DNA of 64,000 nt from assembly GCA_019637265.1 (NCBI GenBank), contig JAHBVY010000002.1:62001-126000 (forward strand), given 5' to 3'. Every line of letters begins with the position of its first letter. Positions within the stretch are counted from its first letter, which is position 1. Of this stretch, positions 52,208 to 60,534 are shown piece after piece. This DNA is from Polyangiaceae bacterium (GTDB lineage Bacteria > Myxococcota_A > Polyangia > Polyangiales > Polyangiaceae). The position numbers and the translations under genes were made by a program. The notes beneath the pieces are model-generated. The model was not told where the DNA came from, made no database searches, and was given only the letters and a program-made list of their open reading frames with translations.

Positions 52208-53695
52208 ATGTCTCGACGCCTCCACCTCCGCACCCCGCTCTCCCTCGTCACCCTCTCGCTCTTGGCCGCCTGCGCCGGGAGCTCGCCGCCAGCCCCAGCT
52301 TCCAGCGCGGCCCGCTACGACGCCGAGCCGACGCCCGCCTCTCCCGGTGTGTCCGAGGAGGCAGACGGCGCCTACGCCGGTGAAGCCACGGGCGGTGAGC
52401 CGATGGATGACGAGGCGATGGCGGCAGAGGCGCGGGACGAAGCGCGGGAAGCGGCGCCACCCCCAGCCTCAGCCCCCATGGCCTCGAGCGGCGCCTCCAA
52501 GGCGGGACCCGCTGCTGAGTACGCCCCGCGGCGCCGCAGCGGTGGAGCCGTCGGCGGGCGACCCGGCGAGGTGGCGGTGGCCTCCTCCGGGGTGCGCGCG
52601 GGTGAGTGGGACGACAACGCGAACTACCAAGAGTTCAAGCGCTGGCTCGGCACTCAAGATCACCTCGGCTACCTGCGGATGGACGTCGAGCAGCGGCGCT
52701 TCATGGTCGTCACCGACAGCCAGGGTCGCGCGGTCCCCGGTTGTAAGGTCACCGTGCGCGACGCCGCGCAAAGGAGCGTTACCCTGACGACTCAGACCAG
52801 CGGCCGCGCGCTGCTCTTCCCCCGCGCCGAAGGGCTCCGCGGCGACACGCTCACGGCGGACGCGAACTGCCAGGGCGCTCAGGCCAGCGCGCGCTTCCAG
52901 CTCGGGGCGATGGACGCCGCCGTGCCGCTGCGCCTGAACAAGGCACGCTCACTGCCCACCCGACGCACCATCGATCTCGCCTTCATCCTCGACACCACGG
53001 GCTCCATGTCGGAGGAGATCGCGAGCATCAAGGACACCATCCGCGCGGTGTCGAGCCAGCTCGACACCGGCAACGTGGACGTGCGGATCGCGATGGTCGC
53101 GTTCAAGGACGTGGGCGACGAGTACGTCACCCAGGTGCACCCGTTCACGCGAGATCTGCATGGCTTCGCGCGGCGCGTGCAGGGGATTCAAGCGAGCGGC
53201 GGCGGCGACACGCCGGAGGCGGTGAACGAGGCGCTCGAGAGCACGCTCACCAAGCTCGACTGGCAGGCGAGCAGCGTCGGTCGCTTCGCCTTCCTCGTCG
53301 GCGACGCGCCGCCCCAGTTCGGGCGCCAGGGCGCGAGCTACACCCGCAGCATGCAGCTCGCGAACCACAAGGGCGTGCAGATCTTCACCATCGCCGCGAG
53401 CGGGATGGACGGGCTAGGGCAGGTGGTGTGGCGCCAAATCGCTCAGTACACCGGCGGCTCCAATATGTTCGTGCTGCGCGGCGGCGCCGGGCCGCAGTCC
53501 ACCGGCGCAGGCGACGCGAAGAGCAGCTGCGGCGGCACCCACACCAACTACTCGAGCGGCAACCTGGACGCGCTCATCGTCCAGAAGGTGCAGCGGGAGC
53601 TGCGCGCGCTGGACGCGGACCCCATGCGCATCGCCGGGCTAGGCCAGGACGAGCGCGCCAAGCCCTGCGCCGAGCGCCTCGTGGTGGCGGAGTGA
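52208..53695 (+). CDS. VWA-domain lipoprotein
   Basis: The 495-residue protein has a lipobox (LSLLAAC, Cys22), an acidic Ala/Pro/Met-rich linker to about residue 130, a short segment with HLGYLRMDVEQRRF, a carboxypeptidase-regulatory-type beta domain (VPGCKVTVRDAAQ) and a von Willebrand A domain (about 255-440). The MIDAS is complete: DTTGSMS, GGGDTPEA (Thr) and LVGDAPP (Asp). Such secreted VWA proteins bind other proteins with Mg/Ca. It ends ten bases from the end of the convergent kinase gene. Confidence 0.88.
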   Translation: MSRRLHLRTPLSLVTLSLLAACAGSSPPAPASSAARYDAEPTPASPGVSEEADGAYAGEATGGEPMDDEAMAAEARDEAREAAPPPASAPMASSGASKAGPAAEYAPRRRSGGAVGGRPGEVAVASSGVRAGEWDDNANYQEFKRWLGTQDHLGYLRMDVEQRRFMVVTDSQGRAVPGCKVTVRDAAQRSVTLTTQTSGRALLFPRAEGLRGDTLTADANCQGAQASARFQLGAMDAAVPLRLNKARSLPTRRTIDLAFILDTTGSMSEEIASIKDTIRAVSSQLDTGNVDVRIAMVAFKDVGDEYVTQVHPFTRDLHGFARRVQGIQASGGGDTPEAVNEALESTLTKLDWQASSVGRFAFLVGDAPPQFGRQGASYTRSMQLANHKGVQIFTIAASGMDGLGQVVWRQIAQYTGGSNMFVLRGGAGPQSTGAGDAKSSCGGTHTNYSSGNLDALIVQKVQRELRALDADPMRIAGLGQDERAKPCAERLVVAE

Positions 53696-53705
53696 GGGGC
53701 AGCCG

Positions 53706-55712
53706 TCAGGCAACCTGCTCTTGACGCCCCTCGACGATGGCTCCGTCCACCGTCATCGCGCGCACCACGCCCAAGTCGGCATGCACACTGACGAACGGCA
53801 CGCGCCAAGACTCACGCCACACCGAGCGCCACTCCGAGCCGGGCGCCGCCATCTGCAGCCATAGCTGACCGGGGCTCGCCGCGAAGGCGCGGCCCCCGGC
53901 GTCGAGCGCCACCGCGGAGAGATCGGGCGACCCCGGCACGGTGCTGACCCACGGCTCGTCATCCACCACTCGCGCCGTGCTCCCACTCGCGCCGACCACC
54001 ACCCCGACGCCCGTCTCCACCACGCCGGAAGCATCGAGGTAAGCGCGCACCTTCGGGAGGCGCTCCTTGTGGATCTCCCACAGCGTGGGCTGATAGCGCA
54101 CCGCGAACCCTGAGCCGTCCTTGGCGCGCCCCACCACCAGCCACTCCTCCGGCCCGATGCGCGCCAGCGCGTTCACGCTGTCCGCTCGCGACAGCTGCGC
54201 CGGCTTCAGCCAGTGCCCACCGGCGATGGCGTAGAGCAGCGGCGGCTCCCCCGCGCGCTCGGCGACGAGCACCGCTAGATCATTCATGTCGCCGCTCGCG
54301 TGGGTGAAGCTCGCGCGCGGATCCGGGCCCTTGAGCACGCTGCCGATGCCGCGCGCCGAGTATTCGCAGATGGTGGCTTGGTCCCCCCCCACGAGCCAGC
54401 GCCCCGCGCCGACGCGCTGCACGAAGCGCACCCCATCGCGCAGCGGGAGCGCCTCGTTCGCGGCGCGCTCCCAGCCGGTGCCGTTCCAGAACTCGAGGCC
54501 ATCGCCGCTCGCCACCAGGCAGCGACCATCACCATCCCACGCCACCGAGCGCACCACGCGATCAGCGCCTGGCTCGCAGCGCACGATGAACTGATAGCCC
54601 TTGAACAGCGTCTGCGGTTCGTCAGTGGAGATGCTCTTCAGCCGCCGCGCCGTGGTGCGCTGGCTCACCGCGGAGTCGCCGCGGAGCGCAGGCGCCAGCA
54701 TGGCCACGAAGGCGCTCCCGGTGGGCGGCCGCAGGCGCGGGTCGTGGCTCGTCGCGCGCGCGAGCAGCTCGTCGATGCTGAGGCAGGCGCTCGGGCGCTC
54801 CGCCAGCTCCGGCGCCAGGTTCTTGCTCTCGGTGATGCTGCGGCGCTTCTCGGAGCGCGCCGCCAGCACCGCCTCGAGCGGCGTATCCGAGGGGAAATAG
54901 TCTTCCCCCGTGAGCATGCGGAAGGTCACCGCCGCCAGGCTGAAGATGTCGCTCTGGTTGCCCACCAGCTCCGGGGCCATCTCCACCTGCTCCGGCGCGG
55001 CGTAGCCCGGCGTGCCGAGCGGCACCACGCCGAAGGTGTGGTTATTGGCGCCCGCGGGGCGCGCGATGCCAAAGTCAGCTATCTTGAAGATCTCGTCGCG
55101 CCCGAAGCCGCAGCACAGCACGTTGGCCGGCGTGATGTCGCGGTGCACCACGCCCACCGCGTGGATCGCGTCGAGGCCAATCGCCAAGCACTCCACCGCG
55201 TGCCGCGCGCGCAGCGGATCGAACGCAAAGCCGGTGCGCACCACGGAGTAGTGCACGCGCTCGTGCAGCGTGGTCCCCTCCGCGCCGCCCCCCACGTACT
55301 CCAGCGCGAGCCACGGCAACTCGAGCGGCGCCCCCTTGAACTCCACCCAGCTGCTGCCGGTCTCGATCAAGCGCACCACGAAGGGCGTAGGGGGCACCGT
55401 CTCGTTCAAGCGCCCGAGCGCGACGGCCTCCTTCAGCACAATCAGGTTCCCTGTCCGCGCCGACTGCCGCATCACGAACGGCCGCATCACCTTCACCACC
55501 ACGGGCGCCGCGCCCTGCGCCGTGCGGCGCACCGCGAGGAAGGCGATCGACATCCCGCCCGCGCCGATCCGCCGCGTCAGCGTGAGGGTGGTGCCACGAA
55601 ACGCGGTGCTCTCGAGTGTCTCCCCCTCGAAACAGCTGAGCACATCGTCGTCCGCCGGGACGGTGCGCTGAGAGGCCGGCGATTTCACCGACCGCGAGCC
55701 TACATGATTCAC
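53706..55712 (-). CDS. Serine/threonine protein kinase with C-terminal beta-propeller-like region
   Basis: From GTG 55712 the 668-residue protein has a kinase domain: glycine loop IGAGGMSIAFLA (49-60), K74, HRDITPANVL with D192 and N197, and DFG at 213-215, then GTPGYAAPEQ. The catalytic loop has Thr in place of the usual Lys (HRDxKPxN). After about residue 320 a run of short WD/PQQ-like blades (GVRFVQRVGAGRWLVGG, LARIGPEEWLVVG) suggests a beta-propeller sensor. No TM is visible. The preceding gene (Cys-rich lipoprotein) ends 32 bases upstream, so they may be co-transcribed. Upstream in-frame starts extend into that gene and look non-coding. Confidence 0.85.
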   Translation of the reverse strand: MNHVGSRSVKSPASQRTVPADDDVLSCFEGETLESTAFRGTTLTLTRRIGAGGMSIAFLAVRRTAQGAAPVVVKVMRPFVMRQSARTGNLIVLKEAVALGRLNETVPPTPFVVRLIETGSSWVEFKGAPLELPWLALEYVGGGAEGTTLHERVHYSVVRTGFAFDPLRARHAVECLAIGLDAIHAVGVVHRDITPANVLCCGFGRDEIFKIADFGIARPAGANNHTFGVVPLGTPGYAAPEQVEMAPELVGNQSDIFSLAAVTFRMLTGEDYFPSDTPLEAVLAARSEKRRSITESKNLAPELAERPSACLSIDELLARATSHDPRLRPPTGSAFVAMLAPALRGDSAVSQRTTARRLKSISTDEPQTLFKGYQFIVRCEPGADRVVRSVAWDGDGRCLVASGDGLEFWNGTGWERAANEALPLRDGVRFVQRVGAGRWLVGGDQATICEYSARGIGSVLKGPDPRASFTHASGDMNDLAVLVAERAGEPPLLYAIAGGHWLKPAQLSRADSVNALARIGPEEWLVVGRAKDGSGFAVRYQPTLWEIHKERLPKVRAYLDASGVVETGVGVVVGASGSTARVVDDEPWVSTVPGSPDLSAVALDAGGRAFAASPGQLWLQMAAPGSEWRSVWRESWRVPFVSVHADLGVVRAMTVDGAIVEGRQEQVA

Positions 55713-55743
55713 CCTGGCGAGCAATCGGCGCGAGGATCGGCCC

Positions 55744-56496
55744 CTACTTATCCGTGCGGGCGCAGCGGATCTTGCCGTCGCTGTCGTCACACAGCTCGCC
55801 CTTCGCGCAGCTCTCGCTGAGCGCAAAGCGAGCGGCGCGGCAAGTGACGATGCCGAGCTGGTCGGCGCTGCACGCGTGCTTGCCTTCCATATCCTTGGGG
55901 CAAGGATCGTCCGCCGCGGCGCGCGCCAAATCACAGCTGAGCTGACCACCGCTGGTGCTGCAGCCCTTACTGCCGCGGCAATGCAGCTCCACCTTCATCT
56001 GCCCGTCTTGGCAGGAGAGCAGCTGCGTCCCGGCGAGGTTACAGGCCTTGAGCCCCGTGTCGCGACAGCGGTCCCCCGCCTGCGCCACCGCGCGATCACA
56101 GCGCGCCGCGCAGCCGCCAGGACCACAGGGCTCCTCCAAGGTGCAGCCGGCGGGACCGCGGCACGGCTCCGCGACGAACGCACCCTCGAAGCACACGAGC
56201 TGCGCGCGCCCATCGGCGCTGCAGGTGGACGCTCCCTGCTCGTCGCGACTGCACGCGTCCCCCGCTTGATTCCCGCGGAGGTCGCAGCGCACGCCCTCCT
56301 CCACCCAGCAGCCCTTCTCCCCACGACACGGCGCCGCGATCATCCGCCCCTCGGAGCAGATGAGCTGCGTCTTCTCATCCAGGCACCGCGACTCCCCCAC
56401 CTCGCAGCGGCTACCCACCTCCGGCTTGCACCCGAAGGTGAATGAAGCCGCCAGCAGGAGCCAAGCGCTCCTGGGCCACACAGGGGATGTGCTCAT
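55744..56496 (-). CDS. Cysteine-repeat lipoprotein upstream of the kinase
   Basis: The 250-residue protein has a lipobox (SFTFGC, Cys23) and four or five tandem repeats of about 45 residues: GDxCSRDEQGxSTCSADGRAQL VCFEGAFVAEPCRGPAGC-type units with six Cys each. It looks like an extracellular disulfide-rich protein similar in kind to that at 44600. A shared transcript with the kinase is suggested by the 32-base gap. Function is unknown. Confidence 0.8.
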   Translation of the reverse strand: MSTSPVWPRSAWLLLAASFTFGCKPEVGSRCEVGESRCLDEKTQLICSEGRMIAAPCRGEKGCWVEEGVRCDLRGNQAGDACSRDEQGASTCSADGRAQLVCFEGAFVAEPCRGPAGCTLEEPCGPGGCAARCDRAVAQAGDRCRDTGLKACNLAGTQLLSCQDGQMKVELHCRGSKGCSTSGGQLSCDLARAAADDPCPKDMEGKHACSADQLGIVTCRAARFALSESCAKGELCDDSDGKIRCARTDK

Positions 56497-56624: not shown

Positions 56625-57509
56625 TCAGGCGACGCGACGACGACGCGCCACCACCAGCGCCCCGAGCGCGCCCAGCGCCAGGAGGCCAAGCCCCGCGTCG
56701 CCACCCGGCGTCGCCGGGCGCGTGGCGCAGCTCGCGCTGGCCTCCGCCTCCGCCGAGCACTCGGCGGAGCCGCTGCCGCTGCTGCACGAGCCGCTGGCGC
56801 TCGCGTCCACCGTGATGTTGAGCTGCGCCTTCAGCGCCGCGATGCACTCGTTCAGGTTGCCGCCGTGGTCCACGTACTGACCATCACAGAACAGCGCGCC
56901 CTCCGGCTTGGTGCACGCGGCCTCACAGCCACCCTCCAGCCGTGCCTGGCACGAGGCGCGCCCCGAGCCTTGACAGGTTGCCTGACAAGAGGCGTTGGCG
57001 CGCGCCTCACAGGAGCCCTGACAGCTCGCCGCGCACTTCGCCTCACAGCTCGCGGAGGCGTTCGGGTCCACGTTGCAAGAGCCCTCGCACTCCACGCTGG
57101 CGGTGGCCTTGCAGCTCGCGCGGCACTCGTTCCTCTCCTGGTCCGTGCCGGCGCTGCACTGCGCGGAGCAGTCCGCGTCGGCCCGCGCCTCACAGCTCCC
57201 CTGGCACTCGAAGCTCGGTGGATCCACCTCGCACTGTCCGTTGCAGGTCGCCTCGCAGCTGCCGGTGCACTCGACGTCAGCGCTGATGTTGCACTCGCCA
57301 GCGCACTCCACGGCCAGCTCCGCGGAGCACGCCGCGGTGAAGTTGATGGGCTCGCAGCGCGCGGTGCAGCCACCCTCGACCTCCACCTTGCACTGGGCGT
57401 TGGCCTCGACGTTGATGTTGCCGCAGGCCTCGACGCCAGCCTGTGCAGGCGCTGCCATGAACAGGGGTACAGCCAGGGCGGCAGCGGCGAACAGAGATGT
57501 CAGCTTCAT
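56625..57509 (-). CDS. Cysteine-rich secreted protein with MYXO-CTERM-like tail lacking the usual Cys
   Basis: The 294-residue protein has a signal peptide (MKLTSLFAAAALAVPLFMAA) and about 40 cysteines in short CxxxC and CxGxC spacings (ECAGECNISADVECTGSCEA). The C-terminus is PGGDAGLGLLALGALGALVV followed by ARRRR: a hydrophobic helix and Arg cluster as in MYXO-CTERM sorting tails, but with Gly-Gly-Asp at the position where the tail normally has Cys. The protein is probably exported and retained in or released from the outer membrane by that tail. The repeat module is unlike those at 44600 and 55744. Confidence 0.8.
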   Translation of the reverse strand: MKLTSLFAAAALAVPLFMAAPAQAGVEACGNINVEANAQCKVEVEGGCTARCEPINFTAACSAELAVECAGECNISADVECTGSCEATCNGQCEVDPPSFECQGSCEARADADCSAQCSAGTDQERNECRASCKATASVECEGSCNVDPNASASCEAKCAASCQGSCEARANASCQATCQGSGRASCQARLEGGCEAACTKPEGALFCDGQYVDHGGNLNECIAALKAQLNITVDASASGSCSSGSGSAECSAEAEASASCATRPATPGGDAGLGLLALGALGALVVARRRRVA

Positions 57510-57851: not shown

Positions 57852-59231
57852 TCAACGGGCGAAGGGCCAACCGGGACCGGCGTCCGACTCGAAGTGCTCG
57901 AGCCAGCGGGCGCGCTGGGCGGCTGGGTCCTTGACCCAGGTCTGCTCGTGACCGACGCCGAAGGCCTCCGGGTCCGCGTCGCGAGGATCCCAACTGAACA
58001 CGTAATCTGACTTTTCCAGTCGCGGCAAGAGCCGCCTCAGCGCGCGCAGGGTGTGCTTGGCCTGGATGTGGAACAGCACCACCGCGCCGGGCCGCGCCCC
58101 GCGCAGCACGCGATTCGTGATCTCCCCTGCCGAGATCTCCTCCCAGTCGCGGGTGTCCACGTCCCACAAGAAGAGCTCGTAGCCGAGCTCCTCCGCCACG
58201 CGGCGCACCCGCGGGTCGTAGGCCATCATCGGCGGCCGGAACAAGTGGCACTGGCCGTGCCCCGCGCCGAGCTCGATCTCGCGACGCAGCGCCGCCTCGC
58301 TCAGCGCGGTGAGGTTGGGGTGGGTGTGGCTGTGGTTGCACACGCGGTGACCCGCCGCCTCCACCTCCGCCACCCAGCGCGGGTAGCGCTTCAGGTTTTG
58401 CCCCGTGGGGAAGAACAGCGCCTTGGCGCGGTGACGCGCGAGGAGCTTCAGCAGGCGCCGCGTGCGCGCCTCGCCGCGCGGCCCGTCATCGAAGCTCAAG
58501 ATGAGGTTGCCCCCGCGACCCTGGACCACCTCACGCGGCGCTGGGAATACCGTGCGGAAAGACCAATCCACCGCGTGGAGCGCCTCGCCATTCGTCAATT
58601 GGCCTGACACTCGCAGCTGGTAGGTGGTGCCCGGGCGGAGCGACTCCTTCGGCGTCATGCTGAGCCGCGTCGGCGACGGCCAACCGAAGCTGAGCGTAAC
58701 GGGCGGCACCGAGGTCACCTCCACGCTCGCACGGTCGACAGGAGAACTGAATATCACCTCGATGGTGGTGTCGAGCCGCGCCCCGGCGCCCATCGGGCTC
58801 GCCCAGGACACCGCCGCGCGGCCGTCGCCCGGAGCGAGCTTCGGCGAGGCGGGGGGTGCTCCATCAGCATCACTGACTGCATCGCCCTGCGCCACGAACG
58901 AGCCGGGTGAGCCAGGCGCTGTAGATGGGCTGGGCGCTGTAGATGGGCTGGGCGCTGTAGATGGGCTGGGCGCTGTAGATGGGCTGAGCGCCGCGCTGGG
59001 CGGCGCAGCAGGATCTGTCACAGCAGCTGATGAAGCCGAAGGTTCGAGGACGGGGGGTTGGGGCGCGCCACCGGGCGCCGTGCGCGCGTCGTCACAGGCA
59101 GTCAGGAGCGCGATCCAGATGCCGGCGCACGCGGCTATCCACCTCCCCGGCGCCAAGCCGAAGCGCGCCCTACTGCACCGCAGCGGCTCGACATCGCGCT
59201 CCAACCGGCGCTCGGAGCTGTCCCGCGGCAC
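57852..59231 (-). CDS. NodB-type polysaccharide deacetylase lipoprotein
   Basis: From GTG 59231 the 459-residue protein has a hydrophobic signal ending IALLTAC, then a Pro/Ser-rich linker that includes four SPSTAP units (from the DNA repeat at 58918-58989). A beta domain follows (VIFSSPVDRASVEVTSVPPV). The NodB domain has LILSFDDGP (Asp-Asp), HSHTHPNLT (His/His) and LFRPPMMAYDP, the five-motif set of family 4 carbohydrate esterases; motif 3 carries MMAY in place of the common PYG. It probably removes acetyl groups from peptidoglycan or another surface glycan. An upstream in-frame ATG (59357) overlaps the divergent gene and is rejected. Confidence 0.87.
   Translation of the reverse strand: MPRDSSERRLERDVEPLRCSRARFGLAPGRWIAACAGIWIALLTACDDARTAPGGAPQPPVLEPSASSAAVTDPAAPPSAALSPSTAPSPSTAPSPSTAPSPSTAPGSPGSFVAQGDAVSDADGAPPASPKLAPGDGRAAVSWASPMGAGARLDTTIEVIFSSPVDRASVEVTSVPPVTLSFGWPSPTRLSMTPKESLRPGTTYQLRVSGQLTNGEALHAVDWSFRTVFPAPREVVQGRGGNLILSFDDGPRGEARTRRLLKLLARHRAKALFFPTGQNLKRYPRWVAEVEAAGHRVCNHSHTHPNLTALSEAALRREIELGAGHGQCHLFRPPMMAYDPRVRRVAEELGYELFLWDVDTRDWEEISAGEITNRVLRGARPGAVVLFHIQAKHTLRALRRLLPRLEKSDYVFSWDPRDADPEAFGVGHEQTWVKDPAAQRARWLEHFESDAGPGWPFAR
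58918..58989 (-). repeat. 18-bp coding tandem repeat (4 units)
   Basis: GCTGTAGATGGGCTGGGC is repeated four times without gaps; the last unit has one change. It codes for SPSTAP units in the deacetylase linker and is a likely slippage site. Confidence 0.85.
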
Positions 59232-59253
59232 CGGGCGATGATAGCGTTCCGGG

Positions 59254-60534
59254 GTGAGGCGTGCAGCCTGGGTGCCACCGTCAGTGCGCGCTTGGCTGGC
59301 GTGCAGCGCGCTGGTCGCTTGGGCGGGCTGCGACGAGGCCTCCACCAACGCCCGCACGGCGCCAGAGCCTGCGGGGGGCGTCGAGAGCGCGAGCCCAGCT
59401 AGCTCAGCGACCGGCGCAGCCGACTCCGCCCCGCGCTCAGCCGACTCCGCTCACCTCAGTGACGCGAAGCGAAGCGAGCCCACCGCGGGGCCAGCTCCGA
59501 GCAGCGCGAGCACCCAAGGCGCCAACGCCGACCCCCAAGCGCCCGGCGAACCGGCCGATCCTCCCCCGCCGCTTCCGCGCGGTCGCATCCCCAGCAAGCT
59601 CACCCGCGAGCCACCGACGCCGCTCGATGGAGCGCCGCCGCGAGGCCCCATCGACGTCGGCTTGGACGGCGCCTGGCTGCGCCGCATGGCGGGCGGCGCC
59701 ATCACCCGCGTGACGGAGAACCAGGGCGGCTCCACCGTCACCATCCGGCTCACCTTCGAAGACGGCGCGCGCGCCGTGCTCAAGGCGGACCAAACGCGCT
59801 CGGCGACCAATTACCGTAGCGAAATAGCGGCCTATCACGTGGACCGACTGCTCGGCTTCGGTCGCACCGCACCGGTGGTGGGCCGGCGCTTCTCCCGCGC
59901 GGCGATGCGCGCCCACTTGGTGCACGCAGGGGCGCGCCCTGAGTTCCTCGCGCGCTTCGATCAAGAGCTTCGCTCACCGCCCGAGGCGCCGGACGAGGTG
60001 AAGGGCGCCGTCATCGCCTGGCACAGCGAGCGGCTCCATTCGCTGGAGGTGCCGCGGCGCTTCGGTGAGTGGACAGCGCCCGGCGCCACAGTACCCGCTG
60101 AGATCGCGCCGCACCTCGTCCCTCTCAGCGAGCTCACCCTGTTCGATTTCCTCATAGATAATACGGACCGCTACAGCGGCGGCAACGTGCTGCGCTTGGG
60201 GCCGCGCGGGCCCATCATCTTCCTCGACAACGGCGCCGGCTTCGCCGACTGGCGCGCACAACGCGAGCACGCGCTCACGAGTGACCTGACGCGGATCTGC
60301 CGCTACCCAGCGCCGCTCGTCCGCGCCCTCGAACGAGTCGGCCCCGCAGCACCCGCCTCACAGCGCCTCGGCGAACGCCTCCGCCGCAGCCTCCGCAAAG
60401 ACCCACTCACCCCCGTGCTCACCCCACTGCACCTCGAAGCCCTAGACCGCCGCGTAGCGCAAATCCTGGAGCACACCACACGCTGCACCCAAAGCACGAC
60501 GACAGAGCGCGATGGCGGTCCCCATCCAAACTAG
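59254..60534 (+). CDS. Fam20C-like secreted kinase lipoprotein
   Basis: The 426-residue protein has a lipobox (LVAWAGC) and a Ser/Ala/Pro linker to about residue 125. The C-terminal domain matches the Fam20 family in order: RAVLKADQT with K177, EIAAYHVDRLLGF with E190, LTLFDFLIDNTDRYSGGN with D305, and FLDNGAGF with D325. In vertebrate Fam20C the corresponding Lys, Glu, DRH-type Asp and DNG Asp bind nucleotide and metal, and the kinase acts on secreted proteins. The assignment is by pattern memory; bacterial members may phosphorylate proteins or sugars. It is divergent, by 22 bases, from the NodB deacetylase. Confidence 0.8.
   Translation: MRRAAWVPPSVRAWLACSALVAWAGCDEASTNARTAPEPAGGVESASPASSATGAADSAPRSADSAHLSDAKRSEPTAGPAPSSASTQGANADPQAPGEPADPPPPLPRGRIPSKLTREPPTPLDGAPPRGPIDVGLDGAWLRRMAGGAITRVTENQGGSTVTIRLTFEDGARAVLKADQTRSATNYRSEIAAYHVDRLLGFGRTAPVVGRRFSRAAMRAHLVHAGARPEFLARFDQELRSPPEAPDEVKGAVIAWHSERLHSLEVPRRFGEWTAPGATVPAEIAPHLVPLSELTLFDFLIDNTDRYSGGNVLRLGPRGPIIFLDNGAGFADWRAQREHALTSDLTRICRYPAPLVRALERVGPAAPASQRLGERLRRSLRKDPLTPVLTPLHLEALDRRVAQILEHTTRCTQSTTTERDGGPHPN

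Follow-up and report, generated by a model that had tools for sequence, protein, structure and literature searches.

The window, a stretch of 64,000 nucleotides from a soil-type Polyangiaceae bacterium, encodes a Fam20-type kinase which lies outside the animal Fam20 proper, and the divergently encoded CE4 polysaccharide deacetylase beside it is a conserved partner of this kinase (Table 1). The kinase is probably located at the cell surface and held there by a lipid anchor. It is proposed, with a probability of about one half, that this lipid-anchored, exported enzyme phosphorylates an envelope or extracellular glycan and that the deacetylase works on the same glycan. In comparison to the known Fam20 fold, the new aspects are the absence of the Fam20 loop, a putatively different metal scheme, the bacterial envelope setting and the glycan-enzyme partners. 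In the known family, the human secreted proteins phosphorylated by Fam20C number in the hundreds, and proteoglycan assembly is under the control of Fam20B.

Table 1. Features of the kinase locus in the window, and NAGPA genes at other loci.
Feature	Position	Strand	Remarks
Fam20-type kinase gene	59254..60534	+	GTG start, 426 aa
Kinase protein layout			predicted signal peptide with lipobox Cys26; Ala/Pro/Ser linker about 27-131; kinase domain about 132-417
K177, ion-pair Lys (human Fam20C K285)	59782..59784	+	K or R in 40/40 and 39/39 homologues
E190, helix-C Glu (human Fam20C E311)	59821..59823	+
DRYSGGN, catalytic D305 (human D458) and N311	60166..60186	+	both invariant, 40/40 and 39/39
D325, metal-binding Asp (human Fam20C D478)	60226..60228	+	invariant
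C349 and C411 (Hydra Fam20B Cys341-Cys400 disulfide)	60298..60486	+
CE4 polysaccharide deacetylase, Big_5 and NodB domains	57852..59156	-	PF01522, 1.5e-24
Region between the divergent kinase and deacetylase genes	59157..59253	.	97 bp, with the putative deacetylase start
Cys-rich secreted protein, hydrophobic tail and Arg-rich end	56625..57509	-	syntenic block; neighbours 45-54% identical
Cys-rich lipoprotein-like protein	55744..56496	-	conserved, syntenic block
Coiled-coil protein, one apparent membrane helix	60736..61551	-	downstream of kinase; weakly conserved block member
NAGPA genes	L042:6678-7901, L058:3563-4693, L062:2248-3213, L063:3878-5053, L086:6436-7785		beside Fam20-like genes

Sequence and predicted fold of the kinase

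The GC content of the kinase reading frame by codon position (0.73/0.60/0.81) is coding-like, and the gene is single-copy in the source genome of 5.7 Mb. An earlier note, made from the letters alone, had read this gene as a secreted Fam20C-like kinase, and every motif quoted there was found in order. The lipoprotein signal and Ser/Ala/Pro linker described in that note were also recovered. The linker comprises 21 Ala, 21 Pro and 14 Ser among 105 residues; the lipobox of the window kinase (LVAWAG before C26) is poor, with Trp at -3, and clean lipoboxes (PLASC, LALGC, LLVGAC, LLAASGC) are present in most of the close orthologues with a resolved N-terminus. Judging by the motif and the orthologues, the kinase would be exported as a lipoprotein in the source strain. 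A mobile-element origin of the kinase was considered and rejected, no homologues being found in plasmids and phages (tblastn) or in viral contigs.

Residues 287-417 of the kinase match the Pfam Fam20C family (PF06702) at 66.6 bits against a cut-off of 26.8 (E 3.3e-18), and a Pfam scan at E 1 returned, besides this, only a weak match to FAM198. In phmmer comparison with the solved structures, the kinase retrieved human and zebrafish Fam20C, Fam20A, Hydra Fam20B and C. elegans Fam20 and no others, with E 2e-18 to solved Fam20C. The HMM built from five animal Fam20s scored 97.4 bits on the window kinase versus a maximum of 2.3 over 500 shuffles. A profile of 40 bacterial members matched FAM20C along the entire domain (E 1e-35) and PI4K2 only at 1e-3; PF06702 is matched by 24 of these 40 at E 0.01 or better, and HipA_2 by six.

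The three dimensional structure of residues 125-418 was predicted with AlphaFold2 from an alignment of 39 sequences (pLDDT 93, pTM 0.92). When this predicted structure was searched against the PDB with Foldseek, matches 1-28 were all Fam20 chains (E 1e-16 to 2e-13), and PI4K2 followed at 2e-4. With VIA-align the nine best PDB matches of the model were Fam20A/B/C, having Z of 25.6-27.8 over 273-278 residues (Hydra Fam20B 27.8, DrFam20C 27.7, human Fam20C 27.0, Fam20A 26.2 and C. elegans 26.0), and the values outside Fam20 were 16.1 for PI4K2, 15.3 for CtkA and 10.4 for HipA. The assignment to the Fam20 family made in the earlier note is borne out by these comparisons, but its preference for Fam20C over Fam20B is not, as the Z values of Fam20B and Fam20C lie within one unit and the model makes no choice between them.

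PI4K2, CtkA and HipA/HipA_2 have the kinase-like superfold in common with the window kinase, and their matches are far weaker than those of Fam20. Other chemistry is carried out by SelO, SidJ and similar relatives with a kinase fold, and with PI4K2 and CtkA as the next structural matches it can be speculated that the fold performs another transfer (e.g. nucleotidyl or glutamyl) or uses a lipid or small-molecule substrate. This is very improbable, since it is supported by no specific feature and the Fam20 matches stand far above those to lipid kinases. The Bacillus spore-coat kinase CotH is a bacterial atypical kinase which has been likened to Fam20C (PMC12189002). Unlike CotH, which has no DFG-type motif, the window kinase carries D325, and a CotH match was not found in the Pfam scan of the protein.

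Catalytic residues and the missing Fam20 loop

In the alignment of 40 sequences, which reaches down to 21% identity, D305, R306, N311 and D325 are invariant and E190 is Glu in 39; the second conservation set of 39 sequences overlaps the first and gave the same outcome. Since the catalytic residues are kept at 21-54% identity, selection maintains them. The four residues K177, E190, D305 and D325, listed in the earlier note as all the catalytic and metal residues, are thus present and conserved, but the list falls short by a fifth acid of the animal Fam20s (human E306, Hydra Fam20B D152), which is missing. Neither of the two observations named in that note as refuting it, a model outside the Fam20 fold or a lack of conservation of the four residues, was made. 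The spacing of K177 and E190 is 13 residues versus 26 for K285 and E311 in human Fam20C, and in alignment with the solved animal sequences all bacterial rows show a clean 13-residue gap at the Fam20 loop. The Fam20-specific loop with its Mn-binding acid was not found in the aligned bacterial homologues, and no acid is conserved at this position among them. In the animal enzymes, the acid of the inserted loop coordinates Mn and the ion-pair Lys (PMC4421793, PMC5865150). The E306Q mutation in Fam20C abolished the ATPase activity and greatly reduced the kinase activity, and Gln in place of E306 is part of the reason why Fam20A is a pseudokinase (PMC4421793).

The loss of an acid which is essential in Fam20C could mean that the bacterial kinase is inactive, and this counts against the proposed glycan phosphorylation. 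A pseudokinase or nucleotide-binding scaffold of the Fam20A type, which would regulate the deacetylase, is in line with this loss, with the strict co-occurrence of the kinase with one enzyme and with the fact that extracellular ATP is not known. Such a role seems quite unlikely, however, as the K, E, D and D residues are near-invariant and N311 is invariant across very divergent homologues, and canonical kinases function with Asn and the DFG-Asp, without an equivalent of E306. The invariant Asn lies six residues past the catalytic Asp, near the position of the metal-binding Asn of canonical kinases, and the bacterial enzymes may therefore use the canonical metal scheme with N311 included. With the loop-less bacterial clade, nature offers a way to test if catalysis really depends on the Fam20 loop acid.

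With the loop positions (Tyr148-Tyr151 and F299/F300) counted on the bacterial/animal alignment, the residues of the Fam20B Gal-Xyl pocket (Tyr148, Glu149, Gly150, Tyr151 and His301) were not found in the bacterial proteins; His301 corresponds to Tyr307 in the window kinase and to Trp in most homologues. No known sugar specificity transfers, as residues 148-151 belong to the missing loop and another residue stands in place of His301. The dimer-interface residues F299/F300 of Fam20C were likewise not found, both falling within the missing loop. On this alignment the signature residues of the Fam20B and Fam20C specificities are both missing, and neither subtype is assigned.

The window kinase is like animal Fam20B (glycosaminoglycan xylosylkinase; Hydra 5xom/5xoo) in fold and in the catalytic K/E/D/D, and the motifs EIAAYHxDRLLGF and FDFLIxNxDR as well as the C349-C411 disulfide are common to both. 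Among the 39 homologues, C349 and C411 occur together in 12, the close clade, which are the sole bacterial carriers, and both are present in the animal Fam20s. Unlike Fam20B, the window kinase has neither the Asp152 loop nor the Gal-Xyl contacts Tyr148-Tyr151, lacks three of the four Fam20 disulfides (only the Cys341-Cys400 equivalent has both cysteines) and is a predicted lipoprotein rather than a Golgi protein. Fam20C and Fam20A (5yh3, 5yh0, 4kqa, 5wrr; Z 26-27.7) give the top sequence score and have the C-terminal tail LxxSLxxDPLxPVLxxxHLEALDRR in common with the window kinase, which differs from them in the absence of E306 and F299/F300, in the invariant Asn311 and in having no evidence of S-x-E specificity.

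Partner genes and the proposed glycan phosphorylation

The polysaccharide deacetylase pointed out in the earlier note as a neighbour is confirmed by its Pfam match, and its NodB motifs SFDDGP, HSHTH and RPPM are all intact. It is probably a lipoprotein starting at TTG 59156 (MAPGRWIAACAGIWIALLTAC), a start chosen on account of the signal peptide. The intergenic region is probably a shared regulatory region; the corresponding gaps in loci L072, L078 and L081 are 60-90 bp, and no motif was readable in it, the orthologous regions being too diverged. An 18-bp tandem repeat of 4.3 copies (58915-58991) encodes the Pro-Ser-Thr-Ala linker of the deacetylase lipoprotein.

The divergent arrangement of kinase and deacetylase is seen in the window and at eight other orthologous loci. 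It recurs in one same-genus genome, which also keeps both Cys-rich genes, the coiled-coil gene and a TonB receptor in place. All 14 family genomes having PF06702 above the cut-off contain a close deacetylase orthologue, versus 3 of 92 others (Fisher p 6e-15, shared ancestry ignored). In four of these 14 the two genes lie on different contigs, so that linkage by itself does not account for the co-occurrence, although some doubt remains because of contig breaks. The larger Cys-rich protein of the block has 33 Cys in 294 residues, and its hydrophobic tail with terminal Arg residues resembles a sorting signal; neither a Pfam match above cut-off nor an NCBIfam family was found for it. A Ser/Thr kinase of the PknB type (53706-55949, minus strand), which has a long C-terminal part, was not found in the conserved block, and next to it lies a von Willebrand-type lipoprotein (52208-53695, plus strand) related to sortase-target and CglD proteins.

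In several separate other clades, a NAGPA phosphodiester glycosidase gene, mostly in divergent orientation, adjoins the Fam20-like gene (PF09992 E of 3e-34 in L042, 3e-31 in L058, 4e-28 in L062, 2e-28 in L063 and 7e-33 in L086), and NAGPA homologues adjoin the kinase throughout the clade of L083-L093. The NAGPA-linked clades have 4-7 NAGPA genes per genome, which makes chance adjacency in several separate clades unlikely. NAGPA releases sugars in phosphodiester linkage (PMC12419801). The occurrence of two unrelated exported glycan enzymes, the deacetylase and NAGPA, in the same slot points to a glycan substrate. The surface-glycan substrate suggested in the earlier note gains strength from this conserved linkage, the substrate itself being deduced from the neighbours.

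In the proposed mechanism, the exported kinase would phosphorylate a hydroxyl group on a glycan of the envelope or the extracellular space, and the divergently encoded CE4 deacetylase would act on this glycan too. K177 and E190 would hold ATP and D305 would be the base, and D325 and N311 would bind the metal as in canonical kinases, with no part for the Fam20 loop acid; the phosphate donor would have to reach the kinase outside the cytoplasm. The observed basis of the proposal consists of homology, fold, residue conservation, absence of the loop, linkage and co-occurrence, and from these we infer an active kinase, its lipoprotein export in the source strain, the glycan substrate and the access to the donor. 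The ATP source outside the cytoplasm is the largest gap, and the argument from neighbouring enzymes is guilt by association. About eleven loci of Labilithrix-type Fam20-like genes (L101, L104, L039) have an alpha/beta hydrolase and an S41/PDZ peptidase as neighbours, and in the clade of L053, L055, L059 and L060 the Fam20-like gene is followed on the same strand by a short histidine-kinase-like gene (HATPase_c). These other neighbours of bacterial paralogues count against the glycan proposal.

It appears rather unlikely that the enzyme is an exported protein Ser/Thr kinase with a Fam20C-like action on secreted substrates, for which the Cys-rich neighbours would be examples. Fam20C outscores Fam20B in the sequence profiles (126.6 vs 90.4 bits, and 71.8 vs 66.2 in a second comparison), the conserved block includes two Cys-rich secreted proteins and S-x-E motifs are enriched in the Cys-rich protein of the window (9 vs 2.5 expected). 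However, five of the six orthologues tested have no such enrichment (p 0.05), so that S-x-E motifs, enriched in the window copy and one orthologue, were rejected as a sign of Fam20C-like substrates. Moreover, the dimer residues of Fam20C fall in the missing loop and glycan enzymes are linked to the kinase in two forms.

Returning to glycan phosphorylation, the deacetylase neighbourhood hints that Fam20-type kinases first acted on glycans, and in animals the activity of Fam20B, a sugar kinase, is regarded as the ancestral one (PMC5865150, PMC7948968). The loop-less clade also tests whether sugar phosphorylation is the older activity, and the pairing of the kinase with a deacetylase or a phosphodiester glycosidase gives a concrete place to seek phosphorylated envelope glycans in Myxococcota.

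Distribution and relation to animal Fam20

Of 108 genomes of the family, 14 score above the PF06702 cut-off, as against none among 14 well-known genomes used as controls. Of the 284 genomes sampled from the phylum, 52 have a homologue, with up to seven matches per genome. In the phylum of an Acidobacteria contig (L115), related proteins are present in 23 of the 149 genomes sampled, often several in each. A motif scan of 84,980 prokaryote species, whose reach is limited to the motifs of the closer clades used in it, yielded 44 loci, nearly all from Myxococcota (Polyangiaceae and others).

In a maximum-likelihood tree of 64 sequences, with five animal Fam20s as the eukaryotes, these five group with 12 close-clade proteins (bootstrap/SH-aLRT 100/99), and a quick tree with more rows gave the same grouping with a support of 99. 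The animal-Fam20 HMM scores all 13 close-clade proteins at 65-120 bits and the remaining bacterial members at 59 or below. The window kinase is probably the closest bacterial relative of the animal Fam20 enzymes among those found. In the AU test, a placement of the animals outside the close clade and the nearest bacterial group was not rejected (p = 0.19), the animal Fam20 branch is long (1.8) and the letter composition differs. The animal placement is therefore reported as supported but not settled, and among bacteria the Polyangiaceae close clade is the strongest candidate for being sister to animal Fam20.

In the searchable papers FAM20 is treated as animal, and one survey calls it Metazoa-specific. 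Bacterial Fam20 enzymes beyond the CotH similarity were not found in the searchable literature, which leaves most subscription journals outside. Four uncharacterised Legionella families cluster with the FAM20/CotH group (PMC9758233). As the Pfam model reaches bacterial proteins, automated annotations may already carry the Fam20 name. It can be speculated, as a tentative and somewhat doubtful scenario, that animal Fam20s descend from a myxobacterial-type envelope glycan kinase which later gained the loop with its metal acid, sugar pocket and dimer contacts, and that the bacterial enzymes together with the CE4 deacetylase or NAGPA form an undescribed phosphoglycan-modifying system. In the phylum of L115 (Acidobacteriota-type), genome G451 and others carry up to 11 stretches per genome that match Fam20-like profiles, and these are very divergent.
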